Below are positions 6,935 through 40,522 of a stretch of 40,967 nucleotides of DNA, piece by piece (positions within the stretch are counted from its first letter, which is position 1; the number at the start of each line of letters is the position of its first letter). Under the pieces are notes generated by a model, which saw nothing but the letters and a program-made list of their open reading frames with translations, made no database searches and was not told the DNA's origin. This stretch comes from a virus. Location of the stretch: positions 1-40,967 of IMG/VR virus record IMGVR_UViG_3300036715_002835. One strand, given 5' to 3'. A program made the position numbers and the translations under genes.

Positions 6935-6975
6935 ATTTTATTATTTAGAAATTAATATGCAATTATAATAAAAAA

Positions 6976-6994
6976 TTTTTATATATACACTATA
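6976..6994 (+). promoter_or_regulatory. Phage-type promoter element, best example
   Basis: TTTTTATATATACACTATA ends 18 bases before the ATG at 7012. The identical 19-base string sits at exactly the same distance upstream of the paralogous gene at 9925. The sequence lacks the TAnnTTTG of Bacteroidota housekeeping promoters and somewhat resembles the T4 late promoter TATAAATA. Confidence 0.6.
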
Positions 6995-7011
6995 AAAAAT
7001 AAAATAAAAAT

Positions 7012-7389: not shown

Positions 7390-7390
7390 A

Positions 7391-7425
7391 AAATGACTTG
7401 TATGGACTACAAGTCATTTATATTT
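7391..7425. terminator. Intrinsic terminator
   Basis: AAATGACTTGTA / TACAAGTCATTT stem with loop TGGAC, then a T-rich run. It separates the convergent genes ending at 7389 and 7441. Confidence 0.8.
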
Positions 7426-7440
7426 TCTATTTTAATTTTT

Positions 7441-7731
7441 CTAATAAATTTTAAATATTCTTCTTTTTGTTATTAAAATCTCTTTATCATATTCAAAAGT
7501 CACTTTTAAATCTTTAATTTCATTATTGTATCTAAAATCAAAATCCAACAGATTTATCATTTTGATAAATCTGAAATTTTTTAAAAAAAATGAATATGAT
7601 TTTACTCCAAATTTATTGAGATGTTCAATCTCCAAATATTTAATAATTGTATTACTATTTATAATTTTACTTATAACTTCATATGGAATTAAATTTTGTG
7701 TTTTACTATCGATATTAAGATTAAAAAACAT
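7441..7731 (-). CDS. 96-residue protein, paralogue of the gene at 10627
   Basis: Shares 'FLKNFRF', 'LLDFD' / 'FLDFD' and 'NEIKDLKV' / 'NEIKNLRV' with the 152-residue minus-strand protein at 10627-11085 but lacks its first ~50 residues. It ends 'ITKRRIFKIY', where the paralogue has the tail 'NRKIKLEKINYL', so the tail is degenerate or lost here. The function is unknown; it may be a decaying copy. Confidence 0.5.
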   Translation of the reverse strand: MFFNLNIDSKTQNLIPYEVISKIINSNTIIKYLEIEHLNKFGVKSYSFFLKNFRFIKMINLLDFDFRYNNEIKDLKVTFEYDKEILITKRRIFKIY

Positions 7732-9069: not shown

Positions 9070-9339
9070 CTATATTATCAACAGAAAAATCAAAATTATA
9101 TTTAGATATTCATTTGTAAGATTATCTTTTCTTTTCCACCAATCTTTACTGTGAAATGTTGTATATTCAAATTTATCAAATATAGATTTGTATTCAACTT
9201 CCATAATTTTTAAAACACTTTCACAATAGTCGTAAAAGGTATAATACCGTTCATGATAAGGTGCATTAGAATGATAAAAATTTTCATGCAATTCATCTAA
9301 TATATTTCCAATTTCTTTTATTTCATCATCACTCATCAC
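9070..9339 (-). pseudogene. Truncated copy of the 115-residue gene
   Basis: 89 residues, almost identical to the protein at 6079-6426 as far as 'WWKRKDNLTNE', then an unrelated end 'YLNIILIFLLII' read from the adjacent relic. The junction at about 9113 looks like a deletion that removed the 3' third of the gene. The start and its overlap with the upstream gene are kept. Confidence 0.6.
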
Positions 9340-9847
9340 TGCTCAATTTTTTTAATTTTAAATATCTAATATCTTTTTTAGAAAAAATTTCCAACTTTGT
9401 TTGATTAATTATATATGAAAATAATTTATTTTTCATTAATTCTACTTTACCATCAACTGATATAGAACGAATAAGTTCTTCAATTTCTTTAATTTCGTCT
9501 TCCTCTTCATAATCAAAATCTATTTGAACTCCAGCTGTTTCAATATTATATACTAATGACATATATGTTCCATATGAATATTCTTCATATATGTTTTTAT
9601 AACTTACAGGTAAATAATTTTCAAATAAAGAATCAAATTTATTTGATAAATGACACAAGAAGTTATCAAGAATAACATCTAGAAATTCATCACAAGCATA
9701 ATTATTTATTTGACGTTTCATGAATTTGTTTTTGAACCAATCTTTCGCATCAATATCTACTTCATTTGCAATAATATCTATTGCTTCAAGCTGTTTTTTA
9801 ACTTTATCATTTATCCAACTATTAAAATAATTCTCAAAATTTTTCAT
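9329..9847 (-). CDS. 172-residue protein with KLKKL tail, second copy
   Basis: Paralogue of the protein at 6416-6934. It starts 'MKNFENYFNSWI' (tag-like) and shares 'AIDIIANE' and 'LMKNKLF'; from 'IINQTKLEIFSKKDIRYLKL' to the end it is identical, finishing 'KLKKLSSDE'. The sharp change from diverged to near-identical sequence within one gene is the evidence for gene conversion. The function is unknown. Confidence 0.6.
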   Translation of the reverse strand: MKNFENYFNSWINDKVKKQLEAIDIIANEVDIDAKDWFKNKFMKRQINNYACDEFLDVILDNFLCHLSNKFDSLFENYLPVSYKNIYEEYSYGTYMSLVYNIETAGVQIDFDYEEEDEIKEIEELIRSISVDGKVELMKNKLFSYIINQTKLEIFSKKDIRYLKLKKLSSDE

Positions 9848-9888
9848 ATTTGCTGTTTTATAAATTAATCTGCAAATATAATAAAAAT

Positions 9889-9907
9889 TTTTTATATATA
9901 CACTATA
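9889..9907 (+). promoter_or_regulatory. Phage-type promoter element
   Basis: TTTTTATATATACACTATA, the same 19 bases and the same 18-base distance to the ATG (9925) as in copy 1 at 6976-6994. Confidence 0.6.
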
Positions 9908-9924
9908 AAAAATAATTAAAAATT

Positions 9925-10296
9925 ATGTCTATTAAAAAATTTAACGAATATAATCAAATAAATGAAAATATTCTTAGTGATGATGACGATATTGAAAACA
10001 AATGGGAAGTAAGAATAGATGACGCTACTGATTCATTTTGGGAATATAAGCATGATGCTATTGATCGGATACTTGAAATATTAGATACACAAGGTTATAA
10101 AAATAACTTAGAAGGATATCAAGATGATGATTTAGATTATGAAATGAATCTTGGCGAAATCGCAGATGTTTTAGATGTCTTAGATGAAGATGATTTCTAT
10201 GATAAACTAGATGAGCTTAAAGATTTTGTCGGCTATCAAATTGATATACGATTGATTAATATCGCTGACGAAGATGAAATTGAGTTTTTAGAATAA
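9925..10296 (+). CDS. Very acidic N-tagged protein, second copy
   Basis: 123 residues, paralogue of the protein at 7012-7389. The tag reads 'MSIKKFNEYNQINENIL'; the conserved core is 'ENKWEVRIDDAT' ... 'SFWEYKHDAI' ... 'LDEDDFYDKLDELKDFVGY' and 'LINIADEDEIEFLE'. The extreme acidity is retained although many positions changed, so charge is probably what is selected. It may be a DNA mimic (composition-based guess). Confidence 0.65.
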   Translation: MSIKKFNEYNQINENILSDDDDIENKWEVRIDDATDSFWEYKHDAIDRILEILDTQGYKNNLEGYQDDDLDYEMNLGEIADVLDVLDEDDFYDKLDELKDFVGYQIDIRLINIADEDEIEFLE

Positions 10297-10302
10297 AATT
10301 AA

Positions 10303-10419
10303 AAAAAAATAAAAGATATAGAAAAATTTTCAAATTTTAATGTTAAAGATAGTCATAGAATAGATGAAAATAATGATGTGATAATAGGAATTGACGACTT
10401 TTTAAAAACCAAGTTATGA
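10303..10419 (+). pseudogene. N-tagged relic with an ATA at the start position
   Basis: After the acidic gene the frame 'KDIEKFSNFNVKDSHRIDEN' ... 'DVIIGIDDFLKTKL' then TGA is open, but the codon at the expected start is ATA and no ATG or GTG precedes it. 'xKDIEKFSNF' resembles the N-terminal tag, so this looks like a gene that lost its start codon, or one using a rare start. A further fragment 'MIALAAACYKWKNEIFKF' overlaps its stop. Confidence 0.35.
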
Positions 10420-10452
10420 TTGCACTTGCCGCTGCTTGTTATAAGTGGAAAA

Positions 10453-10605
10453 ATGAAATTTTCAAATTTTAAATATAATATTATAGAGTTTAAAAAAGAT
10501 TTTATATTATTTTTAAATAATTATGGATATTTTATAGATAATGATGTTTTAGATTCTAAATTTGCTAAAATGTTATACTTTATAAAAAAAACATTAAAAA
10601 AGTGA
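10453..10605 (+). CDS. Possible 50-residue protein
   Basis: From the ATG at 10453 the frame reads 'MKFSNFKYNIIEFKKDFILF' and ends 'FAKMLYFIKKTLKK' just before a terminator. It is not recognised. It could be the rest of the decayed gene at 10303-10419. A longer frame from 10420 begins in sequence that looks like another relic, so the inner ATG is preferred. Confidence 0.35.
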   Translation: MKFSNFKYNIIEFKKDFILFLNNYGYFIDNDVLDSKFAKMLYFIKKTLKK

Positions 10606-10606
10606 A

Positions 10607-10646
10607 ATAAAAATTACTTGTGATTTTCACAAGTAATTTATTTTTT
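10607..10646. terminator. Intrinsic terminator overlapping a coding end
   Basis: AAATTACTTGTG / CACAAGTAATTT stem, loop ATTTT, T tract after it. The minus-strand 152-residue gene has its stop codon inside the hairpin, so its last codons form one arm. Confidence 0.8.
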
Positions 10647-11085
10647 CAAGTTTAATTTTCCTATTAAACTTTTCATATTCCGAACTAGATGTAATCGTAT
10701 AAATTTTTTCATATTTAAATATTACTCTCAAATTTTTAATTTCATTTGATTTATTCCAATCAAAATCTAGAAAATTCAAAATTTTAACAAACCTAAAATT
10801 TTTTAAAAAATTTGAATATATCTTACTACCGAATTTATCATAATGTACAATTTCTAAATATGATATTGTTTCAGAATTATCTATCATATTTTTAATGCTA
10901 TTATACGGACTTAATTCTTTTCCATCAAAATTTAAATTAAATTTCATAATATTCTTTTCAATAGAATAACAGTTATTTTTCAAATTAAAATCATAAAACA
11001 TAACATCAAAAAGAGAGCAATAAATAGGTTCAACATTGTAAGGTTTAAATATTCCTATATTGTTTATTTGTACAGACATAATCAA
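10627..11085 (-). CDS. 152-residue protein with KLEKI tail
   Basis: Longer paralogue of the protein at 7441-7731. It starts 'MIMSVQINNIGIFKPYNV' and shares 'FLKNFRF' and 'LEIVHYDKFG' / 'LEIEHLNKFG' with the other copy; it ends 'FNRKIKLEKINYL', a version of the recurrent tail. A 4-base ATGA overlap couples it to the 106-residue gene upstream. No family was recognised. Confidence 0.6.
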   Translation of the reverse strand: MIMSVQINNIGIFKPYNVEPIYCSLFDVMFYDFNLKNNCYSIEKNIMKFNLNFDGKELSPYNSIKNMIDNSETISYLEIVHYDKFGSKIYSNFLKNFRFVKILNFLDFDWNKSNEIKNLRVIFKYEKIYTITSSSEYEKFNRKIKLEKINYL

Positions 11086-15466: not shown

Positions 15467-15880
15467 TTATTCTTTTTTAAATTTCTTCAGTCTTTTAATA
15501 TCTTCTCTTAATTTTTCATCATAATATTTGATTAAAAAATCAACATCATTATCTGTAATTTGATAATATTCTTTTATTAATTTTAAGTCATTATTATTAA
15601 AATTAGATTCTACCTTTATCTTAGATACTTGCTTAGTTTTCCACCACCATTTAGGTATACCATTAGTTTCTTTATAAAAAACTTGAAACCAAATATCTAA
15701 TGCTGATGATCTTTCTACATTTTTAAAATTAAAAAATTGTGCTTTCTTTATATCTCTAAATGCAAATTTTTGATTCAACTTAAAAAAACAATCTTCTTTT
15801 TCCTCATCAGAAATATATTTATATTTACTCTTATCCTTGAATATTATGTTAGCTAGTGTTATGAAATCTACTTTTGCCAT
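15467..15880 (-). CDS. 137-residue protein, function unknown
   Basis: 'MAKVDFITLANIIFKDKSKY' then 'ISDEEKEDCFFKLNQKFAFR', 'ALDIWFQVFYK', 'IPKWWWKTKQ' and a basic end 'LREDIKRLKKFKKE'. The 'F-F-x-L-N' plus 'P-K-W-W-W' combination resembles small replication-factor proteins that I have seen near clamp loaders in large phages, but I would not assign it on this basis. The tail is a loose match to the recurrent C-terminal motif. It overlaps the histidine kinase gene by 13 bases. Confidence 0.5.
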   Translation of the reverse strand: MAKVDFITLANIIFKDKSKYKYISDEEKEDCFFKLNQKFAFRDIKKAQFFNFKNVERSSALDIWFQVFYKETNGIPKWWWKTKQVSKIKVESNFNNNDLKLIKEYYQITDNDVDFLIKYYDEKLREDIKRLKKFKKE

Positions 15881-17832
15881 ATACTTTTTAATATTGTTAT
15901 TAGTTTATCTTTATTTATTGGTTTTTTTAAGTGATAATCTACTAAATTGTTTTTTTCCTCGTCAACACCTGATTTTGAAATAATTTTACAATCTCCGCAT
16001 ATCATTTTAATATTTTTTATCATATCATAACTTTTTATACAAAATAAATTTAAGTCTATTATTATTATATCAATTTTTTCTTTTTGTTGTTTATATATTT
16101 CAACAGCCTCATCACCACAATTAGCGGTTATCATATTAATATTCATATATGTTAAATATATACCTAATATAGAATATTTTGGTGGAATATCATCTATTAT
16201 TAAAACTGTTTTATCTGAAAAATCAATATCATCATTATTTTTTTCTTTTACAATCTCTTCTATTGGTATTTTTATAAAAAACGTCGTACCTTTATTTAAT
16301 ACTGAAGTTAACCAAATATCACCATTTAAAATTTTTACTATACTCTGTGATATGGATAAACCCAATCCTGTTCCTTTATATTTTTTTCTACTACTACTAT
16401 CACATTGCCAAAATCTATCAAAAACATGTGGAACATTTTCTTCTGAAATCCCAATTCCAGTATCTTCAACTTTAAATGTTATATAATTGTTTTTTAATGA
16501 GAATGAAACTTTAATATACCCCTTATCTGTAAACTTGATAGAATTACTTATCATATTATATAAAACTTGCTTAACTCTTAAGTAATCTGATGATATTTTA
16601 ATATCATCACATTTTAAAAATAAAAGTTTTACAAAGTTTAAATTTTTACTATAATTAACTTCTTCAAATATATCTGATAATTCTTCAAACAAATCTAACA
16701 CTGAAAATTGTTCATATAAAATATCTAAAGCTTCGCTTTCTATTTTTGAATAATCTAAAATATTATTTAACAATTCGTCTAAGTGTTTAGCGTTTGAATT
16801 TATTGATTTTAAAAATCTATAAGAGCCTTTGTTTTTACTATCATTTAGTAGAATATCAGAAAATCCAATTATAGTATTCATTGGTGTTCTCAACTCATGA
16901 GATATATTAGAAAGAAAAGTGTTCTTTATTGAATTGCTTTTTTCTAATGCTTCCTCATTTTCTTTTTGAGATGTAATATCTTGAATTACACCAAAAACAA
17001 CCCTATTTCTATCATCATAGTTTGCTATAGATTTTATAATTTTAATTTTATTATTTACATTTATTTTAAACTCAACATTATAATGTTTATTATTCTCTAT
17101 CAATTTACTTAATGAATTATCTAAATACTCTCGGTATTCTGGTAATGTAAAATTTTTAATATCTTGATATTTAAATTCGTTTGATAAAGTTTTTAATTCA
17201 TATATTTTTTTTACACCTACTGACACATTAATTATTTTTTTATCAACATATAGTTCCCAATTTCCTGTTTTTGATATTATCTCAGCTCTTTCTAATCTAC
17301 TTTCTGATTTTATTAATTCTTCAGAACGTTTATATTTTTCGTCATTTGCATTAATCAATTCATCAGCACTTTTAACCTTTTCTTCGTTGGCAATAATTAA
17401 CTCATCAGCACTTTTACCATTTTCTTCATTTTGAAATATCAATTCCTGATCCAAATTCTTGTGAACATTTATTCTATCTGTAATATCTGTAAATATTGCT
17501 ATAAATCCAATATCATTCCAATATGCAACACTAACGCCAAAATATTTATTTATTTTATCATGATAAAATTCAAAATATTTTGAATTTTTATTTAAAATTA
17601 CATCAGAACACATATCTAATGATAATACATCGCCATATAATTCAGATGCTAATTTTCCTTCTGATTCTTTTTTTGTGTAACCAAAAATAGACTCAAATTC
17701 CATATTAACTTCGGAAATGATATAATCAATCGTATTTCCATTATTATCAAAAACCATTTGATGATATGCAACACCTTTTAGTCTATTAGATAGTAAGTTA
17801 TCAAAGTATAATTTATGTTGTAAATCTTGCAT
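15868..17832 (-). CDS. Hybrid sensor histidine kinase (PAS-PAS-HisKA-HATPase-REC)
   Basis: 654 residues, no membrane segment, so soluble. PAS-like domain ~25-115; a coiled-coil linker with repeats 'KSADELIIANEEKVKSADEL' (~140-160); second PAS ~185-290; HisKA with 'SNISHELRTP' (phosphoaccepting His ~312); HATPase with N-box 'YNMISNSIKF', 'VEDTGIGI' and 'GTGLGLSIS'; and a receiver domain with 'LIIDD' (~545), phospho-acceptor Asp ~593 in 'IIDLNL' and 'LKKPI'. All key catalytic residues are present, so it is probably active. The linker repeat is typical of Bacteroidota kinases, suggesting capture from a host. Sensor kinases are rare in phages; no output regulator is visible here. Confidence 0.9.
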   Translation of the reverse strand: MQDLQHKLYFDNLLSNRLKGVAYHQMVFDNNGNTIDYIISEVNMEFESIFGYTKKESEGKLASELYGDVLSLDMCSDVILNKNSKYFEFYHDKINKYFGVSVAYWNDIGFIAIFTDITDRINVHKNLDQELIFQNEENGKSADELIIANEEKVKSADELINANDEKYKRSEELIKSESRLERAEIISKTGNWELYVDKKIINVSVGVKKIYELKTLSNEFKYQDIKNFTLPEYREYLDNSLSKLIENNKHYNVEFKINVNNKIKIIKSIANYDDRNRVVFGVIQDITSQKENEEALEKSNSIKNTFLSNISHELRTPMNTIIGFSDILLNDSKNKGSYRFLKSINSNAKHLDELLNNILDYSKIESEALDILYEQFSVLDLFEELSDIFEEVNYSKNLNFVKLLFLKCDDIKISSDYLRVKQVLYNMISNSIKFTDKGYIKVSFSLKNNYITFKVEDTGIGISEENVPHVFDRFWQCDSSSRKKYKGTGLGLSISQSIVKILNGDIWLTSVLNKGTTFFIKIPIEEIVKEKNNDDIDFSDKTVLIIDDIPPKYSILGIYLTYMNINMITANCGDEAVEIYKQQKEKIDIIIIDLNLFCIKSYDMIKNIKMICGDCKIISKSGVDEEKNNLVDYHLKKPINKDKLITILKSIWQK

Positions 17833-20004: not shown

Positions 20005-20526
20005 ATGAAATGGTATGTTGTTAGAGTTGCCAATGGCAAAGAAAAAAAGATAAAAGATGCAATAGAATTTGAACTTAAACAAAATTCTGTTGAATGTTTA
20101 ATTTCAAATATGATTATTCCTCATAAAAAGGTAGAGCAACTTAGAAAAGGTAAGATAATTGGTGTTGATCAATTAACTTTTCCTGGTTATATTTTTGTTG
20201 AATGTGAATCAATAGATAATGTTGAAGGAGCAATAAAACATATTAATGGTGTATATTCAATATTAAAAAATCCTTTAAGTAAAAGGGAAGTTGATAGATT
20301 GCAAGAAAATAAACAAGATGTAGTTATTGTTACTGATAAATATTATGTGAATGAAATAATTAAAATAATAGATGGTCCATTTAGCACATTTATTGGTACT
20401 ATTGTATCATTGGATAATAATAAGCAAAAAGCAAGACTTAGTGTTTATGTTTTTGGTAGAGAAGTTATGTTAGATTTGAATTTTTCACAATTTATTAGAA
20501 ATGTTGAATCTTCAGTTAGTGCTTAA
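20005..20526 (+). CDS. nusG: NusG-like transcription elongation factor
   Basis: 173 residues. The NGN domain opens with 'MKWYVVRVANGKEKKI' and has 'FPGYIFVECESIDNVEGAIK' and the 'INGVYSILKNP' strand; the KOW domain is at the C-terminus ('IKIIDGPFSTFIGTIVSLDN', 'RLSVYVFGREVMLDL'). This is the length and order of bacterial NusG, which binds RNA polymerase and affects pausing and antitermination. A phage-coded NusG may redirect host polymerase to phage transcripts. It shares a terminator with the convergent S1-domain gene. Confidence 0.9.
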   Translation: MKWYVVRVANGKEKKIKDAIEFELKQNSVECLISNMIIPHKKVEQLRKGKIIGVDQLTFPGYIFVECESIDNVEGAIKHINGVYSILKNPLSKREVDRLQENKQDVVIVTDKYYVNEIIKIIDGPFSTFIGTIVSLDNNKQKARLSVYVFGREVMLDLNFSQFIRNVESSVSA

Positions 20527-20562
20527 AAAAAGAGATGTTTAATTAAACATCTCTTTTTTATT
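20525..20562. terminator. Bidirectional intrinsic terminator
   Basis: AAAAAAGAGATGTTTAATTA then the mirror half AAACATCTCTTTTTT form an almost perfect palindrome with T tracts on both strands, between nusG and the S1-domain gene. Confidence 0.9.
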
Positions 20563-20575
20563 ATCTTTATTTTCT

Positions 20576-21709
20576 TTAAGCAAAATTTAGATAAATTTTC
20601 CTATCATCCTTAATTAATGATATAACTTTTACTTTTACTTCGTCACCAATATTCAATTTCTTTTCATATTTTGAAATATAAGTAGTTTGAATTAATCCAG
20701 TAGTTTCATCATCAAGTGAAATAAGTGCACCAAAACTTTTGATATCCCTAATCTTACCAGTTAAGATTTTACCAACTTTAATATTATCCCATAGAGACTC
20801 TTTTAAAATTTGAGTAAGGATAATCTTATTATTTTTTATAACTTCTTTAACATAGAATGCTATAGTCATGCCAGGTAAAATCTGATCCCATTTATTTTGC
20901 CATTCTTCTGTAATATTTGCTTTATGCACCATACCAGTTAAACAGTTAGGTCCATCACTTGTAGATTTGAATTGAGCAAATACGCCAAAAGGAGTAGTTC
21001 CTGTTATTTCGCCATTATATTTTTCACCATATTTCAATTTCTTAATTTCATCTGGAATCAATGATTGTAAATATTTTCTACGTGATACAACATAAACACC
21101 TTTTTCTTGCTGTAATGTTTCTAACATAACTTCAAAAGTTAAACCAAGAATAGATTGATTATCAGACAATTTGTTAACATCAGCTAATGTGTTTGGCATA
21201 AAAGCTTCAATTGTAATATTGTCCATGTGAATATCCATCATATATCCTGCGGGTATTAAAGATTTTACTTCTGCAATAAGAGGAAGTCTATTTTCAAAAT
21301 AGTTTTTCATCTTATTATTCACGTTTTGTTTAATTAACTCAGTTATAGAACCCCTAATAATATAAGGCTTATCTGAAACATCAGTAATCAAAACATCAAT
21401 AGATTCTCCGACAGTAAATTCTGTCACAAAAGTGCTCTTTTTAGGTTTATCTACATAAATATAGTCTTTGGATCCAAAGTCTATCAATATTTCTTTGTTG
21501 CTTATAGATGATATAACACCCGAAACAACATCATTCACTTTAACCTCTTTAAGAGAAACTAAAGATTTTTCCATTTGCTCATAAAGATCTTTATAATCTT
21601 GATTTAAATCTTTTGAACTTTTAATTTTTCTAATTTTATCGTTTGATAAAAATGGGAATGGATCTGGAAGACTACCAATGTTTACGCCTTCGATTAATTC
21701 TGTAATCAT
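20576..21709 (-). CDS. Four-S1-domain RNA-binding protein (ribosomal S1-like)
   Basis: 377 residues with four OB-fold S1 repeats: ~55-120 ('KVNDVVSGVISSISNKEILI'), ~140-210, ~225-300 ('YNGEITGTTPFGVFAQF') and ~310-377 ('LTGKIRDIKSFGALISLDD'). The last two have the clear S1 signature G-x-[IV]-x-x-x-x-x-F-G-[AV]-[LF]. Ribosomal protein S1 (usually six repeats) brings mRNA to the ribosome. A phage version could favour its own leaderless or SD-less messages, which fits the absence of Shine-Dalgarno sites here, or act in antitermination with the neighbouring NusG. Its role is inferred. Confidence 0.85.
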   Translation of the reverse strand: MITELIEGVNIGSLPDPFPFLSNDKIRKIKSSKDLNQDYKDLYEQMEKSLVSLKEVKVNDVVSGVISSISNKEILIDFGSKDYIYVDKPKKSTFVTEFTVGESIDVLITDVSDKPYIIRGSITELIKQNVNNKMKNYFENRLPLIAEVKSLIPAGYMMDIHMDNITIEAFMPNTLADVNKLSDNQSILGLTFEVMLETLQQEKGVYVVSRRKYLQSLIPDEIKKLKYGEKYNGEITGTTPFGVFAQFKSTSDGPNCLTGMVHKANITEEWQNKWDQILPGMTIAFYVKEVIKNNKIILTQILKESLWDNIKVGKILTGKIRDIKSFGALISLDDETTGLIQTTYISKYEKKLNIGDEVKVKVISLIKDDRKIYLNFA

Positions 21710-29004: not shown

Positions 29005-29042
29005 GCAAAAAAAAACTCTGAATAAATTCAGAGTTTTTTTTA
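29005..29042. terminator. Intrinsic terminator
   Basis: AAAAAAAACTCTGAAT / ATTCAGAGTTTTTTT stem, loop AA, strong T tract on either strand. It ends the ClpS-ClpC operon. Confidence 0.9.
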
Positions 29043-29046
29043 TTTG

Positions 29047-31584
29047 TTATTCTACTGATGTAGGTTCTTCAATTATTAAATTTACAATATCTGTTTCTTT
29101 TTGTTTAATCAAAGTTACTTCAGATTTCAAAACATCATATTCCAAAGATATTTTATCACCAAGTTCAATTTCTTCATTTAGAATAGCATCTGTAATGCGA
29201 TCTTCTATATATTTTTGTATTGCTCTTTTAAGAGGTCTTGCACCATAATCTTGGTCGTATCCATTTTCATAAAGAAAATCTTTTAAACTTTGACCGATAT
29301 TAACATCATAACCAAGTTCTTTCAAACGACTTATTAACTGTTTAACCTCAACTTCTACAATTGAACCGATATTTTCTTTTGATAAAGAATTAAACATAAT
29401 CACTTCATCAATACGATTTAAAAATTCTGGAGCAAAAGTTTTTTTCAACTCTTTTTCAATAATTTTATTTTGATCTTTTTGAACATCATTTCCATTATTA
29501 AAACCAATACCTGTTCCGAATTCTTTAAGTTTTCTTGAACCTGCATTTGATGTCATAATTATAATTGTGTTTTTAAAGTCAACTCTACGACCATAACTAT
29601 CAGTTAATACACCATCATCCAATAATTGCAAAAGAATATTATAAACATCAGGATGAGCTTTTTCAATTTCATCAAGAAGAATAATTGAATATGGCTTACG
29701 TCTCACTGCTTCTGTAAGTTCACCACCATCTTCATATCCTACATATCCTGGAGGCGATCCAATTAACCTTGATACGTTATGTTTTTCACCATATTCACTC
29801 ATATCAATTCTAATCATAGATTCTTCTGAGCCGAACAATTCTTTAGCAAGAATTTTAGCCATATATGTTTTACCAACACCTGTAGGACCTAAAAATATAA
29901 ATGAACCTATTGGTTTTTTATGATCTTTTATACCAATCCTTGCTCTCTTAACAGCTCTAACTAATTTATCAATAGCATCATCTTGTCCAATAACAATACC
30001 TTTTACCTTTTCAGACATCATTTTAAGTTTGATGTTTTCATCACTAGATATACTATCTACTGGAATTTTAGTCATAAGTGCTATCACTTCAGCAACATCA
30101 TCCTTTGATACAGTATCACGATTTTTATTTTGCAATGCTTTCCAGTTTTCTTTTTCTTTTTCAAACTCTTTAAGTAGAATTCTTTCAGAGTCACGTTTTT
30201 CAGCTGCAAGTTCAAATTTTTGGTCATTAACCAATTTTTCTTTTTCTGCTGCGATTTTTTTGACTTTTTTATCTAAGTCTTGAATTTTCTTAGGTAAAGT
30301 TGTCGTTTTGTTTACGTGAACTTTTGCACCTGCTTCATCAAGAGCATCAATGGCTTTATCTGGTAGGAATTTTTCTGACATATATTTATCAGTTAAATCA
30401 ACACACGCAATTAAAGCTTCTTCAGTATATGTGACATGATGATGTTCTTCATATTTATCTTTGATATTTTTCAATATCTCCAATGTTTCTGATTTTGATG
30501 TTGGTTCAACAACAATTTTTTGAAATCTACGTTCTAATGCACCATCTTTCTCAATATATTTACGATACTCATCAAGAGTTGTTGCGCCAATACATTGAAA
30601 TGCGCCTCTCGCTAAAGCTGGTTTCAGCATATTTGCTGCATCCAATGATCCAGATGCCGAACCAGCACCAATCATTGTGTGAATTTCATCAATGAATAAA
30701 ATTATGTTTCTATTTTCATCCATTTCTTTTATAATGCTTCTCAAACGTTGTTCAAATTCACCACGATACTTAGTTCCTGATACCAATGATGCCATATCAA
30801 GAGTTATAACTTTTTTATCCAAAAGACTTTCAGGAACATTACCATCAACTATAAGTTGAGCAATACCTTCAACGATTGCGGATTTACCAACACCTGGTTC
30901 ACCAACTAACACTGGATTATTTTTCTTACGTCTTGATAAAATTTGTGAAATCCTTTTAATTTCATCTTTACGACCAACTACTGGTTCCAACTTACCTTCT
31001 TTTGCAAGTTTTGTCATATCTGTACCAAATTGATCAATCAATTTAGTTTTAGAATTTTTATCCACCTTTTCTTTTGATACCTCATGTTCATTCATATCAT
31101 CATATTCACCATTCATATCATCATTTTCATATTCCATAGATTCATCTTCATGTTTTAATCTATTCATTAAAACTTTAAATGTTTGTGGCGATTTTTTAAA
31201 TAACTCCGTTACTAAATTTTGGTTATTATCCAAAATAGAATAAAATACATGTTCAGATTCAACTTCATTAGAATTCATCAATTTTGAAAATTCCTCTGAA
31301 TTTTTCAATATTTTTTCTGTTTCTAAATCAAGTGGAATAACAGCATTTTTTCTAGATTCTACTTCACCAATTTGTAATTGAAGCGAAATGGAAAAATCCT
31401 TCAATGTTTGTTTGATGGCGACAATATTAAGATTCATATCACGTAATATTTGATATGCCTCACAACCTTCATCATTAATTAATGCTAAAAATAGATGCTC
31501 AGGTCTAATTGATCTTGATTTTATACCAATTGCAATAGCCTTACTATCTTTAATCGCTTGTTGTACTTCTGTTGAATAATTCAT
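29047..31584 (-). CDS. clpC: ClpC/ClpA-type AAA+ unfoldase
   Basis: 845 residues in full Clp architecture: two Clp_N repeats (~1-145), an acidic linker, D1 with Walker A 'GEPGVGKSAIVEG' and Walker B 'ILFIDEIHT', a UVR-type middle segment 'NDQKFELAAEKRDSERILLK' as in ClpC, and D2 with 'GPTGVGKTYMAKIL' and 'IILLDEIEKAHPD'. 'FGTGIGFNNG' in D2 is an IGF loop in the position used to dock ClpP, which this window does not encode, so host ClpP is the likely partner. Read with the ClpS gene two genes upstream, the phage could redirect host proteolysis. ClpC-like genes are uncommon in phages. Confidence 0.92.
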   Translation of the reverse strand: MNYSTEVQQAIKDSKAIAIGIKSRSIRPEHLFLALINDEGCEAYQILRDMNLNIVAIKQTLKDFSISLQLQIGEVESRKNAVIPLDLETEKILKNSEEFSKLMNSNEVESEHVFYSILDNNQNLVTELFKKSPQTFKVLMNRLKHEDESMEYENDDMNGEYDDMNEHEVSKEKVDKNSKTKLIDQFGTDMTKLAKEGKLEPVVGRKDEIKRISQILSRRKKNNPVLVGEPGVGKSAIVEGIAQLIVDGNVPESLLDKKVITLDMASLVSGTKYRGEFEQRLRSIIKEMDENRNIILFIDEIHTMIGAGSASGSLDAANMLKPALARGAFQCIGATTLDEYRKYIEKDGALERRFQKIVVEPTSKSETLEILKNIKDKYEEHHHVTYTEEALIACVDLTDKYMSEKFLPDKAIDALDEAGAKVHVNKTTTLPKKIQDLDKKVKKIAAEKEKLVNDQKFELAAEKRDSERILLKEFEKEKENWKALQNKNRDTVSKDDVAEVIALMTKIPVDSISSDENIKLKMMSEKVKGIVIGQDDAIDKLVRAVKRARIGIKDHKKPIGSFIFLGPTGVGKTYMAKILAKELFGSEESMIRIDMSEYGEKHNVSRLIGSPPGYVGYEDGGELTEAVRRKPYSIILLDEIEKAHPDVYNILLQLLDDGVLTDSYGRRVDFKNTIIIMTSNAGSRKLKEFGTGIGFNNGNDVQKDQNKIIEKELKKTFAPEFLNRIDEVIMFNSLSKENIGSIVEVEVKQLISRLKELGYDVNIGQSLKDFLYENGYDQDYGARPLKRAIQKYIEDRITDAILNEEIELGDKISLEYDVLKSEVTLIKQKETDIVNLIIEEPTSVE

Positions 31585-31602
31585 TTTTTTTAATTTAAAT
31601 AT

Positions 31603-31809
31603 TTAGTTTTTATTTATTAAATCTATAGCTTTTATTTCAAGAAAAAATAAAGGAAAAAATATAAGCGAAAATATACACATATATATTTTATTTATAAACG
31701 ATATAATGTTTATAAATTTTACAGCCCATTCCTTAACATATTTAGTTTCATCTTCTTCTAAAACTGAGTGACATATATACAATATATAATTTATAGCAAA
31801 GTTCTTCAT
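31603..31809 (-). CDS. Small membrane protein between clpS and clpC
   Basis: 68 residues: 'MKNFAINYILYICHSVLEED' then a hydrophobic stretch 'FINKIYMCIFSLIFFPLFFL' (~38-57), probably one membrane span. It begins 4 bases after ClpS ends and finishes 19 bases before ClpC starts, so it is co-transcribed with both. Not recognised; the position suggests a membrane-linked adaptor or inhibitor of the protease, but nothing in the sequence proves this. Confidence 0.55.
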   Translation of the reverse strand: MKNFAINYILYICHSVLEEDETKYVKEWAVKFINIISFINKIYMCIFSLIFFPLFFLEIKAIDLINKN

Positions 31810-31812
31810 AAT

Positions 31813-32109
31813 TTATTCCTCTATTGAGACTGTTAATCCTCTTTCTTCTAATAATTTTTTGTATGGTTCTAATGTATCTTTAGAACCTGTTTTTAAAACA
31901 TCTTTACCTTGTAAATGAACAGTCCATGCTGATTTTTCAGCATCTTCATATGTGAATCTCATAAACCCCATAAGACAAGTTATTACCCATTCAAATGAAT
32001 TGAAATCATCATTCCATAAAATTAAGCGAAATTCTTTATCTTCATTTGTAGAAATACCACATTCTGATAGAATTTCATCTAATGTTTTGATACCTTCTTT
32101 TATGCTCAT
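31813..32109 (-). CDS. clpS: ClpS-like N-degron adaptor
   Basis: 98 residues. 'FRLILWNDDFNSFEWVITCL' (~27-46) contains the ClpS core [LV]-x-N-D-D/E-x-x-x-x, with Asn-Asp-Asp forming the N-terminal residue pocket. The later 'AEKSAWTVHLQGKDVLKTGS' corresponds to the ClpS 'A-x-x-x-[ML]-x-x-[VI]-H-x-x-G' segment that binds the ClpA/ClpC N-domain. ClpS hands proteins with bulky N-terminal residues to the unfoldase. It is first in the operon with ClpC. Confidence 0.9.
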   Translation of the reverse strand: MSIKEGIKTLDEILSECGISTNEDKEFRLILWNDDFNSFEWVITCLMGFMRFTYEDAEKSAWTVHLQGKDVLKTGSKDTLEPYKKLLEERGLTVSIEE

Positions 32110-32262
32110 ATTAATTATATTGTGAAAAGTTTGTAAAGTTTATTAATCTGTAGTTAATGTTTATAATTTCAATTTATGTTGCAAATATACGGACAATTTT
32201 TGAGACAACAAAATATTATTTGAAAATTATTTATATTTTATTTATAAAAACAAAAAATAACA
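32110..32262. other. Intergenic region ahead of the ClpS operon
   Basis: About 150 bases. On the minus strand it gives TTTACAAACTTTTCACAATATAATTAAT-like AT sequence before the ClpS ATG. It is not a good match to the TTTTTATATATACA element, so this operon may use another promoter. Confidence 0.3.
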
Positions 32263-32698: not shown

Positions 32699-33856
32699 TT
32701 ATATAAATTCAGTTATATCTATAGATTTATAAATATTATTCCAATTGAGATATTTATCAACTATATCGTGAACATCTTTTAATGTGATATCATTTATAAT
32801 ATTTTCCATTAGCCATTCTGGTTCATTCATATATTTATAAATATTTGAATAATTTAGTATTTGTGATTCTTCTAATTTTGTTAAATAACCATCTTTTATG
32901 ATATCAAATCTTTCTTGATTTAAATACAATTCTTTATTTTCTAAAATTTGTTTAATTTCGTTTTGCACACTTTCAATATTCTTTTTTGATGTATCAGTCA
33001 TAATACATATAGTACAGGATGTGCTATTCAATCTATCAACAAAACAACTTATACCATACGCCAATCCGTTTTTTTCACGAACCTCTTTATAAAGTGGTGA
33101 ATTTAAGCCAGAACCTAACATTTCACATAAAAATGATACATGTGAAAATTTTTCTGTTATTATAGGTGATACATTTATAATACTAACCCTATTCTGAAAG
33201 TCTGTTAATATTTCCAATGGTATAAATCCTTCTGGTACAATAGTATCGTCATCAGATTTAATAATATGTAAATTCTTATTTATATTAAACTCAAATGGTT
33301 TAATTATTACCTTTTCTAAAAACTCTATATCAGATTCAAAATCATTAAATTTAGAAATGTTAATTATCTTAGATGGCTTTTTAAAATATAAGTTTAAATA
33401 CTCTTTACAATTTTCTAATGTGAATTTTTCAATATCAGAACGTAAACCTATTGGGTTATAATGTCCAAAAAGTTTTCGTTGTAAATTTAAATAGTGCGAA
33501 TCTCCTTGCGAATTAAAACTCATCTTATACTCATCCAAGACAATTTTCTTTTCATTATCCAAGTGTTCTTGAGTTGGTTCATAATTTAAAATGAAATCTA
33601 AAAATTCTTGTTTATGCTCGTTTATATGTCTATCAAGTCCTTTCATATAAAAAACGATAGAATCTGTTGATGTGTATGCGTTCCATTTTATGTTTTTTTG
33701 CTGATATATATCCTGCATATGTTCAAATGACTTGCATACTAAATGCTCCATTAAATGTGATAACCCATACCAACCTGGTTTTTCATTCATTGTTGAACCT
33801 TCAAAAATAATATAAAAACCAGATAAGCCAGTTTCACTCTTTACGTTTATAATCAT
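32699..33856 (-). CDS. M16-family zinc peptidase
   Basis: 385 residues, the size of a single M16B subunit. The inverted zinc motif H-x-x-E-H is 'HLMEHLV' (~33-39) with the distal Glu in 'KIVLDEYKMS'. The second half has 'GSGLNSPLYKEVREKNGLAY', the conserved R/Y region that binds substrate in the partner domain. It looks active. M16 peptidases (processing peptidase, pitrilysin, PqqF relatives) are very rare in phages; near ClpS/ClpC it adds to a proteolysis theme, or it could process virion proteins. It is preceded by a TTTTTTTATAAATATATA element. Confidence 0.88.
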   Translation of the reverse strand: MIINVKSETGLSGFYIIFEGSTMNEKPGWYGLSHLMEHLVCKSFEHMQDIYQQKNIKWNAYTSTDSIVFYMKGLDRHINEHKQEFLDFILNYEPTQEHLDNEKKIVLDEYKMSFNSQGDSHYLNLQRKLFGHYNPIGLRSDIEKFTLENCKEYLNLYFKKPSKIINISKFNDFESDIEFLEKVIIKPFEFNINKNLHIIKSDDDTIVPEGFIPLEILTDFQNRVSIINVSPIITEKFSHVSFLCEMLGSGLNSPLYKEVREKNGLAYGISCFVDRLNSTSCTICIMTDTSKKNIESVQNEIKQILENKELYLNQERFDIIKDGYLTKLEESQILNYSNIYKYMNEPEWLMENIINDITLKDVHDIVDKYLNWNNIYKSIDITEFI

Positions 33857-34575: not shown

Positions 34576-37500
34576 TTATCTTAATTCTAAACTAGAAACT
34601 AAATTAGCGTCTTTTTTAACATTTATAATTGAATCATAATTTATACTATGATTATGTTCTATAATAACAACTTTTTTAACTTTTGTTTTTAAAATTTCAA
34701 GGAAATCCATAAATTGTTGAACAGATTCTCCAATTAGTTTTCCTGTACATTCATCTAAAAATATAACATTAGATTTAGATTTAACATTTATTTGTCTTAA
34801 AGCAATCTTTAACGCCAACGCACAGAAAGTTCTTTCCATACCAGAGCTTGTTATGGCAGGCTGACTAACATCCATTCTATCATCCATACTCATTTTTAGC
34901 TCCAATTCTTCATCAAAATATAAAGTAAAATCAACATTTGATAGTAGTTCTGTTAACTCATGATTTATTAAATGTATAGATTTCTTTAAAAGATAACTAG
35001 GTATACCATCACGACCAATACATTTTGAATATTCCTTCAGCAATTCATCTTTTTTCTTTTGCTTTAAAAATCTTTTTATTTTAGAATTTATATCTTCAAT
35101 ATTTTTTTCAATCAATAAAATATCTTTTTCTAAATCATTATTAGAATCAGTCATTTTTTTTATATCATCTTTAATATCTAAAATATTTTTATCTAATTCA
35201 TCAATAGATAATTGTAAAGTTTTATTTTCTTCTATTTTAACTTTATACTCTTGATATTTATCTATCTCTAATTTTAATTCTTTTATTTTAAAGTTATAAT
35301 TTTCAACAGTCAAATCAATGTTGTCTTTATTTGATATTTTTTGTTTTCTCAACTCAAAATTATCTTTCTTGCGTTCTTCAATTTCAATATCATTTTCAAT
35401 ATTTTCTATATTATAATTTTTTAATTCTGATACAATATTCTTTATAACTTGTAATGTTTCTATTTTTGATTTTTCAATGTTTTCAATTAAAACCAACCCT
35501 TTTGAGATATTTTCTTTTAGTGTGATAGAATTATCATAATTATCATTTTCAATCTCTTCAATTAAATCTTTTAGATTTTTATTTTCTTCTTTTAAAACTT
35601 TATTGCTACCAATTTCTTTTAATTTTTGAGATATGATTTCTGTAAAAATGCCATTTTTTAAATCATCTTTACTTTGTTTTAATGTTAACTCCGATGTCTC
35701 AAATTCGTTTAGAGTAGATTTCATCTTCACATATTCTGACATTAAACTTTTAATTTTATCGTCATTTTCCGATTTTTTTAATTCAAGACTTTTTATTTTT
35801 TCTTGTATATGTTCAATATGTTCAGAATACTTTGGATCATTTTTATCAAAAGCTCTACCACAACTAGGACAAGAAGTTGATTCTTTTAACTCCTTTATCT
35901 CAACATCAATATCTTCATTATTTTTTTTATAGAATGCTCCATCTTTTTGTAAAAGTTTAATCTCGGATGTTTTTTCTCCTTTTTTCAATTCAACTTTCTG
36001 GATTTCAGATGTGATGTTTTTAATTTCATCATTTACGACTTTTTCTTTTTCACTCTGTATAACTTGAATTTTCAAATCATTATCACTAATTTTAGCAGTA
36101 ATTCTTTTAATTTCATTAGACTTTAACTCATTAATTTTAACATTAATTTTATCAATCTTATTATCTGATTCTGTCAAAGTATTTCTAAATGCTGATATCT
36201 CTTCCTTTCTTGCCGAAATTTTATCAGTTGTTTTTTTCAAACTTATTTTTAGATTGTTAAGTTTCGTAGCATCGAAAGATGATGGTAATTTTTCAATATC
36301 TCTATCTAAAATCGCCTTTTGAATTTTACACTCTTCTATCTTTAATTTGTAATTTTCTATTGACTCTAAATTAATATCTTCATCAAAATTAATCATAGAA
36401 GAATCAATATTATTTAATTTTTTATTTAAATTATCTCTTTCATCATTATTATTTTTTAAAGATTTTTCAAAATTTTCAATTTCTTCTAAATTTGATTGTA
36501 TAGTTGAATTCAATACAATTATATCGTCTTTTAATTTTTCAACTTCTGATTCAGATTCTTGAATATTAACTACCAATTTTTCTTCACTCAACTCTTTCTT
36601 ATATTCTTTAAACTCTTCTACTTTAGTTTCAAAAATATCCATACCAGCATCTCTAATAACATTATCAATAAATACCGCTCTTGTTTCAGATAAAATATTA
36701 TTTAAATTATCAGCGTTTGTGTAAGATAGTCTTATGAAGTCCAAAAATTCAGATAATATAGAATCTAACTTTTTCTGAGTCTTGTTTTTAACTTCACCAG
36801 TCAATTTATTTTCTTCAGAAATAGTTTCCGATGAATAAAAATCTAATGTTGTTGGACAAGATGTTAAAGCAGTCTTATTTTTGTTCCAAACTCTTTCAGT
36901 TTTACGTTGAATTATAAACTTCTCACCATTAACATCAATAACAGCACCACCTAAACAATAATCTAAAAACCTTTTATTGTTTATATAACGATTGTCACCA
37001 AATTTTGCTTGATTTAAAGTAGTTGTAGTTTTACCATATAAAATGTAAGTTAAGGCATCAATAATTGTTGTCTTACCCATTTTATTAACTCCAAAAATTT
37101 GATAAATTCCATCAACATCTTTCCAATCAACTTCATTATCATCACCATATGATTTAAAATTACTAAACCAAAACTTATCTACACTCCATTCAATATTTTT
37201 AATTGTATCAGCTAAGTGTAAACGACTATTGATAATTTCATCAATCTTTAAAATCTCTTTAATATCTTCTTGTTTATATTTCTGTTCTTCTAAATATTCT
37301 TTAAAAATTTTTGTTTGAACTTGTAAATCACTTAAATCTAATGATTCAGTAAGCATCTTAGATGAGATAATATCATTATATAGATATACTTTTTCAAACT
37401 TAACCTTAGTCGTATTAAAATTTGTTTTAATATAATCCCTAATTTTCTTTTCGTTGATGATATTTATGTTTGAACTATAATCAGTCCAATGAACTTTAAC

Positions 37501-38304
37501 TTCCATTTCCTTGAAAATTGGAGAATTCAAACTAAGATTATCATAATCAACACCTTCATTAATTGTCAAATTTACAAAGGCGTGATCGTTAAAAATGTCA
37601 TACTCATCTACTGTAAATTCTGTAGGTGATTCTATATTCCAGACAAGGAATCCGTGACCAGCGATATTCTCACCAAAATCTTTCTGAATTGTTGAGCCGC
37701 AGTATGCCGCAGATTTATTTTTTCTGAAGTATTGACGTTTGTGTATATCAGCAAGCATCAGATAATCATTATTCTTAAAATAATTTATATCCTTTAATTT
37801 TTTATCATTAAATACTTTTCCAACATCTGTTGTACAATTTTGAATAGGATCGTGAAACAATCCAATATAAATTTTATCATCATCTTTAACTTGATTCAAC
37901 CAAGGATCGACATTTTTTTCTGGATGATTATAAACAACCCAAGCTATTTCATCATCTTCATAAATTCCACTTTTATTATAATATTCAATATTTGGATTGT
38001 TGATAAGTTTAACAATCATATCAATACTATCAACTCTTGATAGGTTTTTAATGTTTAAATCGTGATTTCCGATGATAATCTTAACCTTAGAAATATTTGC
38101 TAAATTGTTTAGAAATTCACCAGCCAACACTTTCGCTTCATTCGTAAGAGTTAACTTACTTTCAAAGAGATCGCCACATAGAACAATTCTATCTGGTTTT
38201 ATTTTTTTTAATTCTTTGTATATTTTACCGAAAATATCACGATATTCATCATGTCTATCACTCTCGTTGAAAATATGGGTATCACCTAAGTGCGCTACAA
38301 TCAT
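34576..38304 (-). CDS. Fused SbcD-SbcC (gp47-gp46-type) recombination nuclease
   Basis: 1242 residues in one frame. N-terminal ~330 residues are a calcineurin-like Mre11/SbcD nuclease: 'AHLGDTHIF' (~4), 'VLCGDLFE' (~41), 'IIGNHDLN' and, later, 'GLFHDP'. From ~370 comes the SbcC/Rad50 half: 'FKSYGDDNEVDW', Walker A 'GVNKMGKTT', long coiled coils with a zinc hook 'TSCPSCGRAF' in the middle, the ABC signature 'SSGMERTFCALALK' and Walker B 'VIFLDECTG'. In T4 and bacteria these are two proteins; here they are one chain. It should resect double-strand ends for recombination-dependent replication. Confidence 0.93.
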   Translation of the reverse strand: MIVAHLGDTHIFNESDRHDEYRDIFGKIYKELKKIKPDRIVLCGDLFESKLTLTNEAKVLAGEFLNNLANISKVKIIIGNHDLNIKNLSRVDSIDMIVKLINNPNIEYYNKSGIYEDDEIAWVVYNHPEKNVDPWLNQVKDDDKIYIGLFHDPIQNCTTDVGKVFNDKKLKDINYFKNNDYLMLADIHKRQYFRKNKSAAYCGSTIQKDFGENIAGHGFLVWNIESPTEFTVDEYDIFNDHAFVNLTINEGVDYDNLSLNSPIFKEMEVKVHWTDYSSNINIINEKKIRDYIKTNFNTTKVKFEKVYLYNDIISSKMLTESLDLSDLQVQTKIFKEYLEEQKYKQEDIKEILKIDEIINSRLHLADTIKNIEWSVDKFWFSNFKSYGDDNEVDWKDVDGIYQIFGVNKMGKTTIIDALTYILYGKTTTTLNQAKFGDNRYINNKRFLDYCLGGAVIDVNGEKFIIQRKTERVWNKNKTALTSCPTTLDFYSSETISEENKLTGEVKNKTQKKLDSILSEFLDFIRLSYTNADNLNNILSETRAVFIDNVIRDAGMDIFETKVEEFKEYKKELSEEKLVVNIQESESEVEKLKDDIIVLNSTIQSNLEEIENFEKSLKNNNDERDNLNKKLNNIDSSMINFDEDINLESIENYKLKIEECKIQKAILDRDIEKLPSSFDATKLNNLKISLKKTTDKISARKEEISAFRNTLTESDNKIDKINVKINELKSNEIKRITAKISDNDLKIQVIQSEKEKVVNDEIKNITSEIQKVELKKGEKTSEIKLLQKDGAFYKKNNEDIDVEIKELKESTSCPSCGRAFDKNDPKYSEHIEHIQEKIKSLELKKSENDDKIKSLMSEYVKMKSTLNEFETSELTLKQSKDDLKNGIFTEIISQKLKEIGSNKVLKEENKNLKDLIEEIENDNYDNSITLKENISKGLVLIENIEKSKIETLQVIKNIVSELKNYNIENIENDIEIEERKKDNFELRKQKISNKDNIDLTVENYNFKIKELKLEIDKYQEYKVKIEENKTLQLSIDELDKNILDIKDDIKKMTDSNNDLEKDILLIEKNIEDINSKIKRFLKQKKKDELLKEYSKCIGRDGIPSYLLKKSIHLINHELTELLSNVDFTLYFDEELELKMSMDDRMDVSQPAITSSGMERTFCALALKIALRQINVKSKSNVIFLDECTGKLIGESVQQFMDFLEILKTKVKKVVIIEHNHSINYDSIINVKKDANLVSSLELR

Positions 38305-39284: not shown

Positions 39285-39601
39285 AAATTATATTTATTTA
39301 TTGTTATTATTAATTCTAATTCTTCTTTATTTTTACTTATATGTTTTATATATCTTGGATTAACATATATTGTGTGATTATCTTCTTCAAAAGTATCTGA
39401 CGTTGAGTCATCATATTCAACAGCAATATATTCACCAGAAGTATTTTTTAATTTTACTTTACCAACATGACTATTTACAAAATTTATATCATTAATACCG
39501 CTAATTTTAGCATAAGCAAAACTATCAATATATAGTATAATATAATCACCTGGTTGTACATCATTCACAAAATATGTTTCAAAAGTCTTAATATTCTTCA
39601 T
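39281..39601 (-). CDS. N-tagged SH3-like protein, array member 1
   Basis: 106 residues. 'MKNIKTFETYFVNDVQPGDY' joins the N-tag to an SH3-like start ('V-x-P-G-D-Y-[IV]-[IL]'), and it ends 'EELELIITINKYNL'. The middle 'INFVNSHVGKVKLKNTSGEY' matches 'FLNSNVGRYVKYARDY' in the next members. Stop and next start overlap as ATGA. Function unknown; the family resembles small KOW/SH3-like phage proteins. Confidence 0.6.
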   Translation of the reverse strand: MKNIKTFETYFVNDVQPGDYIILYIDSFAYAKISGINDINFVNSHVGKVKLKNTSGEYIAVEYDDSTSDTFEEDNHTIYVNPRYIKHISKNKEELELIITINKYNL

Positions 39602-39912
39602 AAATTATATTTTTTTGATGCTAATTTTAATTCTAATTCTTCTTTATTATCAGAGTAATCAATAATATCATATCTATCAAACCACAATAAACTATTATCT
39701 AGATTTTTATCTAAAGAAAATGGTATATTTTCATATTTTACACCATATTTTAAATCATAATCTCTGGCATATTTAACATATCTACCAACATTGCTATTTA
39801 AAAAATCTATAGTTTCGTCACTATCGTATACATATTTATCATTTGTATGACAAAGCACATAATCTCCTATCTTCAATTTAGTTTTTTCTTCAAATTGTTT
39901 AATATATTTCAT
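39598..39912 (-). CDS. N-tagged SH3-like protein, array member 2
   Basis: 104 residues: 'MKYIKQFEEKTKLKIGDYVL', then 'LWFDRYDIIDYSDNKEELEL' and end 'KLASKKYNL'. It is nearly identical to member 3 (39909-40223): by my reading about ten base differences, all changing amino acids. It is coupled to both neighbours by ATGA overlaps. The fold is probably an SH3-like barrel. Confidence 0.65.
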   Translation of the reverse strand: MKYIKQFEEKTKLKIGDYVLCHTNDKYVYDSDETIDFLNSNVGRYVKYARDYDLKYGVKYENIPFSLDKNLDNSLLWFDRYDIIDYSDNKEELELKLASKKYNL

Positions 39913-40223
39913 AAATTATATTTATTTATTGCTAATTTTAATTCTAATTCTTCTTTATTATCAGAGTAATCAATAATATCATATCTATCAAACCACAATA
40001 AACTATTAACTAGATTTTTATCTAAAAAAAATGGTATATTTTCATATTTTACACCATATTTTAAATCATAATCTTTGGCATATTTAACATATCTACCAAC
40101 ATTGCTATTTAAAAAATCTATAATTTTGTCACTATCGTATACATATTGATAATTTGTATGACAAAGCACATAATCTCCTATCTTCAATTTAGTTTTTTCT
40201 TCAAATTGTTTAATATATTTCAT
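39909..40223 (-). CDS. N-tagged SH3-like protein, array member 3
   Basis: 104 residues, close copy of member 2. Changes relative to member 2: Asp25-Lys26 to Tyr-Gln, Glu33-Thr34 to Lys-Ile, one Arg to Lys, Ser to Phe, Asp to Val and Ser-Lys to Ile-Asn near the end; the N-tag 'MKYIKQFEEKTKLKIGDYVL' and the 'KYNL' end are unchanged. The concentration on amino-acid-changing sites suggests diversification after duplication. Confidence 0.65.
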   Translation of the reverse strand: MKYIKQFEEKTKLKIGDYVLCHTNYQYVYDSDKIIDFLNSNVGRYVKYAKDYDLKYGVKYENIPFFLDKNLVNSLLWFDRYDIIDYSDNKEELELKLAINKYNL

Positions 40224-40522
40224 AAATTATATTTTTTTGATGCTAATTTTAATTCTAACTCTTCAATGGTTTTACCATATTCTACTATATCAGAAATATT
40301 AAAAACTACAGTATTATTATAAAACCATATTTTCTTTATATTTTCTGGAACATTTTCATATTCAACTTCAATTTCATTGAACTTAAAATCAACCTCAAAT
40401 AATTTACCTATATTATTATTTATAAATGATTCAAAGTCTTTATCATATTTAATTTTATAGTTAATTAGTACATAATCACCAACTTCTGGCTTATTATTAT
40501 ATTCTTCAAATATCTTTATCAT
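40220..40522 (-). CDS. N-tagged SH3-like protein, array member 4
   Basis: 100 residues: 'MIKIFEEYNNKPEVGDYVLI' (shortened tag, then the SH3-like start), 'FINNNIGKLFEVDF', and end 'EELELKLASKKYNL', identical to member 2 in the last 14 residues. The ATG overlaps the stop of a broken fifth member upstream. Function unknown. Confidence 0.6.
   Translation of the reverse strand: MIKIFEEYNNKPEVGDYVLINYKIKYDKDFESFINNNIGKLFEVDFKFNEIEVEYENVPENIKKIWFYNNTVVFNISDIVEYGKTIEELELKLASKKYNL

Follow-up and report, generated by a model that had tools for sequence, protein, structure and literature searches.

A conserved clpS–membrane protein–clpC gene block in large phages suggests a phage-coded Clp protease

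Introduction

Clp proteins are encoded by various large phages. Agrobacterium phage Atu_ph07 harbors ClpX, ClpA, ClpB, ClpP, and ClpS in one genome (PMC6102473), and this set was confirmed by our own searches. In contrast to the locus described below, the ClpS, ClpP, and Hsp100 genes of Atu_ph07 are found at distant loci, and no operon including a membrane protein has been reported. A review of jumbo phages describes ClpP in some phages, ClpS "instead" in others, where it works together with the ClpAP of the host, and ClpA or ClpX in still others (PMC7824862). The larger records examined here correct this picture of reliance on host ClpAP, in that phages with a ClpS scoring above the cut-off nearly always have a Clp-type ATPase and a ClpP match as well. 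The jumbo phages GAP32, CBB, Phosso, PA5oct, Kaldavass, and Vibrio 2.275 each combine ClpS, an Hsp100 protein, and ClpP, but they infect proteobacterial hosts and the genes are scattered. The unfoldases of GAP32, CBB, and XaC1 are ClpA-like and lack the M segment, unlike the ClpC studied here. The ClpS of XaC1 scores below the cut-off, and ClpS was not found in Lak-A1, LR756508, and LR756501. The Mahaphages LR745206, LR756502, and LR756504 (PMC7162821) encode a Bacteroidota-type ClpS, a Clp-ATPase, and two or three ClpP matches; however, clpS and clpC are separated by more than 200 kb in LR745206 and LR756502, and the Mahaphage clpS has no adjacent membrane gene. The ClpC proteins of LR745206 and LR756502 (L226 and L227) lack the N-terminal adaptor domain, although ClpS is encoded elsewhere in these genomes. 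Altogether, a complete phage set of ClpS, Hsp100, and ClpP is recurrent and already known, having been published for Atu_ph07, and we found no report on the substrates of the jumbo-phage sets.

Two cellular systems are also relevant. The phage ClpS shares the pocket Asn, Asp, and His with the ClpS–ClpA–ClpP system of E. coli, but the phage unfoldase is of the ClpC type, not the ClpA type, and the phage lacks Aat. Closer counterparts are the ClpS, ClpC, and ClpP of Sphingobacteriaceae, which belong to the same families as the phage proteins, with identities of up to 53% for ClpS, 61–68% for the ClpC motor domains, and 58–64% for one of two types of phage ClpP. However, clpS and clpC of these bacteria were non-adjacent in the loci read, without a membrane gene between them, and the N-domain of the phage ClpC is only 23–25% identical to theirs.

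The sequence analyzed here (the window) is a virus record of 40,967 bp (IMG/VR IMGVR_UViG_3300036715_002835), which represents a fragment of a phage genome and carries clpS, a gene for a small membrane protein, and clpC in one block. No prior description of a fixed clpS–membrane protein–clpC operon, or of a diverged ClpC N-domain, was found in the literature, and the fixed arrangement appears to be new. The reading that we favor, and regard as fairly probable, is that of a nearly self-sufficient phage ClpS–ClpC(–ClpP) protease, for which ClpP is usually phage-coded, the N-degrons are possibly written by the host, and the membrane protein serves as a third component.

Organization of the locus

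The three genes occupy positions 32109–29047 of the minus strand and are arranged, in the direction of transcription, in the order clpS, a 68-codon membrane ORF, and clpC, exactly at the coordinates given in a preliminary description of this locus. The first gene (31813–32109, minus strand) encodes the N-degron adaptor ClpS of 98 aa, recognized by PF02617 and its pocket residues. The second (31603–31809, minus strand) encodes the small membrane protein of 68 aa, which belongs to no known family and was characterized by hydropathy, AF2 modeling, and conservation. The third (29047–31584, minus strand) encodes ClpC, a two-ring Hsp100 unfoldase of 845 aa, assigned on the basis of Pfam, a PDB match, domain identities, a model of the N-domain, and a tree. 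The intergenic distances are 3 nt between clpS and the membrane ORF and 18 nt between the membrane ORF and clpC. Directly 3' of clpC lies a terminator-like hairpin with a 15-bp stem and a T-run (29008–29041, minus strand), a palindrome that is terminator-like when read on either strand, and the gene that follows is oriented convergently. Therefore, the three genes read as a single transcription unit. The roughly 150 nt upstream of clpS contain a candidate promoter, TTTG-N19-TATATTTG (32182–32212, minus strand), a pattern match to what we take to be the Bacteroidota promoter type, and its spacing to clpS is identical in the related contigs G004 and G005. Because the pattern is not enriched across the window, the candidate counts as a conserved position only. 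The matches of a sigma-70 promoter scan were no more frequent than in shuffled sequences.

The preliminary description had also listed a peptide deformylase and an M16 peptidase as signs of phage control of protein turnover. Both were found by Pfam, the deformylase at a separate locus (3921–4355, minus strand; PF01327, 7.4e-41) and the peptidase, with its HxxEH motif present as HLMEH, as the upstream neighbor of clpS (32699–33856, minus strand). Deformylase is a known gene of huge phages (PMC7162821). The tie of the M16 peptidase to the Clp unit is weak, as the gene is located near clpS in the window and in the relative G006 alone; given this inconstancy, a conserved role of the peptidase in supplying ClpS with N-degrons was rejected. 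Similarly, the idea that the unit clears ribosome-stalled products found no support: neither tRNA nor tmRNA genes were detected in the window, and ClpS is not known to be an ssrA-tag adaptor. A PADLOC search for known defence systems yielded only generic AAA and SMC-type matches.

Conservation of the three-gene unit

Relatives were collected from viral contigs, for which ClpS, ClpP, the membrane protein, and the S1-domain gene served as queries. The order clpS–membrane gene–clpC was observed in eight distinct lineages, namely the window, G004 (counted as one lineage with G001–G003, which represent the same phage), G005, G006, G028, G029, G030, and G032. The intergenic gaps within the unit are below 80 nt across the lineages, and in G030 the neighboring genes overlap by 8 nt and 4 nt. 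The recurrence of the same order in seven other phage lineages indicates that the arrangement is not due to chance. In addition, the gene upstream of the unit varies among the lineages, so that the block has been retained although its surroundings change. The clade consists of phages, as indicated by the tail sheath, tail-fibre-type proteins, and ribonucleotide reductase encoded in G004, and the source of the window is probably a large contractile-tailed phage.

The small membrane protein

The membrane protein between ClpS and ClpC, already noted in the preliminary description, is an ORF of 68 aa that is kept in all eight lineages. A short amphipathic helix precedes its one strong hydrophobic span, which contains a conserved proline, and the AF2 model (pLDDT 77) predicts helices at residues 2–16 and 19–67. 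No match to a Pfam, PADLOC, or PHROG family was found, and the protein diverges faster than its neighbors, with identities to the window copy of 31–46% compared with 64–69% for ClpS and ClpC. Both features would fit an ORF that has no functional tie to Clp, for example a small protein for host takeover or lysis timing, and that is merely co-transcribed. We consider this explanation possible but doubtful, because the ORF is always located between clpS and clpC despite the changing flanks, because the genes of the unit overlap in G030, and because a single homologue scan with the membrane protein yielded one extra contig, with the same clpS/clpC context and no other. The gene is under purifying selection, with dN/dS values of 0.35 (G004/G005) and 0.22 (G006/G032).

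The membrane protein is probably a third component of the module, most likely acting as a membrane anchor or an accessory adaptor for ClpC/ClpS. A more specific version would make it a dedicated tether or adaptor that takes the phage ClpS–ClpC(–ClpP) to the host inner membrane, where a membrane-directed N-degron protease would remove host envelope or defence proteins. The diverged ClpC N-domain would then be open to the membrane protein and the phage ClpS but closed to host adaptors; we regard this version as rather unlikely. The membrane partner is the best question raised by the unit.

ClpS and the origin of N-degrons

ClpS matched PF02617 with 61.9 bits (4.9e-17; curated cut-off 23), and the NCBIfam ClpS equivalog models matched below their own cut-offs. 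In an alignment of the phage, Sphingobacteriaceae, and E. coli proteins, N33, D34, and H65, which correspond to N34, D35, and H66 of the amino-group pocket in E. coli, are invariant. The Asn-Asp-Asp pocket proposed earlier therefore held for N33 and D34 but not for its third residue (D35), which is replaced by Ser in G006 and by Glu in G032. The gatekeeper position (Met40 in E. coli) is Phe in the phage ClpS and likewise in the Sphingobacteriaceae ClpS, and thus no changed specificity is implied. From the conserved residues, we infer that the phage ClpS recognizes N-degrons.

The closest cellular relatives of the phage ClpS are all from Bacteroidota of the Sphingobacteriaceae/Sphingobacteriales type. 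Together with the leader of the ClpP proteins described below and the promoter element, they suggest a Bacteroidota host, probably a Sphingobacteriaceae-like (soil) bacterium. The Leu/Phe transferase Aat (PF03588) was absent from all 16 phage records searched for it, and ATE/Bpt (PF04377) was absent from the seven records searched. Among 13 Sphingobacteriaceae-type genomes, representing the likely host group, Aat was present in 12, and ClpC and ClpP were present in all. Since the transferase is missing from the phage records and present in the likely hosts, destabilizing residues would be added by the host Aat or exposed by endoproteolysis.

Phage-coded ClpP

The search for ClpP and Aat that had been proposed in the preliminary description was performed; apart from the negative result for Aat, it revealed no ClpP anywhere in the 40,967-bp record, in line with the earlier observation that none is visible near the unit, whereas ClpP was found in the relatives. 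Specifically, ClpP is encoded in G001–G006 (64–235 kb), in G029 (86 kb), in the closest relative, G026, and in the three Mahaphages, and it is present on every unit-bearing contig of a relative that reaches 86 kb or more. In G004, G005, G006, and G029, clpP forms a separate locus about 36–56 kb from clpS. An alignment with host ClpP revealed the Ser/His/Asp catalytic triad and a Bacteroidota-type leader in the ClpP of G004, G005, and G006. The G004-type ClpP is divergent, with 38–45% identity to host ClpP compared with 58–64% for the G006 type. The PHROGs entries for the ClpP fold are mostly head-maturation families. However, a role as prohead protease was rejected on the basis of the family scores, which for G004 and G006 amount to 249 and 349 bits with the ClpP model PRK14514 versus 67 and 85 bits with the head-maturation model, and of the neighborhood of clpP in G004, in which no capsid gene was recognized.

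The window shares with G026 an S1-domain protein (89% identical) and the gene at 2603–3460 (80% identical). Beyond the latter gene G026 continues, and its clpP is located about 8 kb further on. The gene order of the window departs at 2.3–2.6 kb, just before the position of clpP in G004, G005, and G026, and the contig end near 63–2233 reads as a rearrangement, a deletion, or an assembly join. This end carries a pair of genes for a VWA (DUF2201) protein and a MoxR-type ATPase (63–2233), and the same pair is found 25 kb away in G004. A search via this pair for the clpP absent from the window retrieved distant relatives only. Judging from the relatives, a phage ClpP is likely to be encoded in the window phage's own genome.

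The preliminary description had instead assumed that the phage borrows the host ClpP, such that the phage ClpS and ClpC would reprogram the host ClpP cylinder. This is consistent with the lack of clpP on the window contig, where the clpP-holding stretch of the relatives is not at the collinear place, with the presence of ClpP in each of the host-group genomes, and with the resemblance of the docking loop of the phage ClpC (FGTGIGFNN, with GTGIGF) to that of the host-group ClpC (GQGVGF). Nevertheless, all long-contig relatives as well as G026 encode ClpP, and the window is a fragment that breaks before the clpP site. Borrowing was therefore downgraded as the main model, and we consider it unlikely; phage and host ClpP may, however, be used side by side.

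ClpC and its diverged N-domain

The phage ClpC contains the Pfam domains Clp_N, AAA, AAA_lid_9, AAA_2, and ClpB_D2-small. Most of the features noted earlier for the unfoldase were corroborated: Walker A and B motifs are present in both rings, in accordance with complete D1/D2 motifs, and the IGF loop for ClpP is present; the Walker motifs are conserved, and the (I/V)GF tripeptide is kept in every aligned lineage. For the UVR middle segment, the match is weak (18.2 bits, below the cut-off of 21.5), and the M region can be aligned without gaps to those of the host and B. subtilis-type proteins. The closest solved relative in a PDB comparison is B. subtilis ClpC, and in a tree the phage ClpC groups with host ClpC and not with ClpB. 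A ClpP-independent chaperone or disaggregase activity of ClpC that aids virion assembly or replication and is modulated by ClpS would be in line with the assembly and translocation roles suggested for phage Clp ATPases (PMC7824862, PMC6102473), but it is very unlikely in view of the conserved docking tripeptide, the clustering with ClpC rather than ClpB, and the co-occurrence of ClpP with the unit in the relatives.

The comparison of the N-domain with that of host ClpC, also proposed in the preliminary description, revealed an uneven divergence. The window and host ClpC are 66–68% identical in D1 and 61–65% in D2, but only 23–25% in the N-domain; as a yardstick, host ClpC and a Staphylococcus-type ClpC are 62% identical in both rings and 34% in the N-domain. 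When the phage N-domain was modeled with AlphaFold (pLDDT 89.7), solved ClpC N-domains headed the list of PDB matches. Divergence has thus affected the adaptor-binding N-domain far more strongly than the motor, but the predicted fold of this domain is retained. This divergence fits a motor that is bound to its own adaptors, without proving it.

Several "phage" matches for ClpC and ClpP came from Staphylococcus, Listeria, and Enterococcus records and resemble host DNA included in phage assemblies; none was counted as phage evidence, and one such record was retained solely as the Firmicutes-type ClpC yardstick. In two relatives, the D2 Walker A motif of ClpC is split between Lys and Thr (GPTGVGK^T) by an intein with a homing endonuclease (Pfam Hom_end_hint and Hom_end). 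The intein-bearing genes are L285:1925-5479 (G028) and L286:1662-5207 (G029); the window, G004, G006, and G030 lack the intein.

Proposed mechanism

The favored phage ClpS–ClpC(–ClpP) protease builds on the gene order in eight lineages, the active-site and docking residues, the ClpP of the relatives, and the purifying selection on the membrane gene. From these observations we infer that the components assemble physically. The phage ClpS would bind proteins with a destabilizing, that is, bulky hydrophobic, first residue, generated by the host Aat or by endoproteolytic cleavage. ClpS would then dock on the phage ClpC, namely on its N-domain, although docking is not to be assumed, because this domain is just 24% identical to that of host ClpC. 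ClpC would unfold the substrate and thread it, via the IGF loop, to ClpP, which in this phage group would normally be phage-coded at a separate locus, and the membrane protein would anchor or adapt the Clp complex at the inner membrane. The targets may be of host origin, either defence proteins or regulators, or may belong to the phage itself; the sequence cannot discriminate between these options. The unit brings together an N-recognin, its unfoldase, and a co-conserved membrane protein, with the divergence being greatest in the adaptor-docking domain. As a definable module that can be expressed, it could be used to test whether phages run targeted proteolysis of their own, and where.

Other genes in the window

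Several further genes of the window were recorded. A hybrid histidine kinase (15868–17832; PAS-PAS-HisKA-HATPase-receiver) adjoins a thymidine kinase and has a partial relative in G006. An ORF of 1242 aa (34576–38304) fuses metallophosphoesterase and SMC/Rad50-hook parts in an SbcD-SbcC-like manner; the fusion is kept in G004, G005, and G006, and a similar fused PHROG family exists. A gene block is present as a tandem duplicate (6416–7731 and 9329–11085), either copy of which matches the same genes of G004 and G005. Three adjacent ORFs of about 100 aa (39598–40522) match one gene of G005 and are likely to form a tandem family. Finally, a NusG-like protein adjoins the S1 RNA-binding-domain protein (20005–21709), and few proteins of the clade are as well conserved as the latter.
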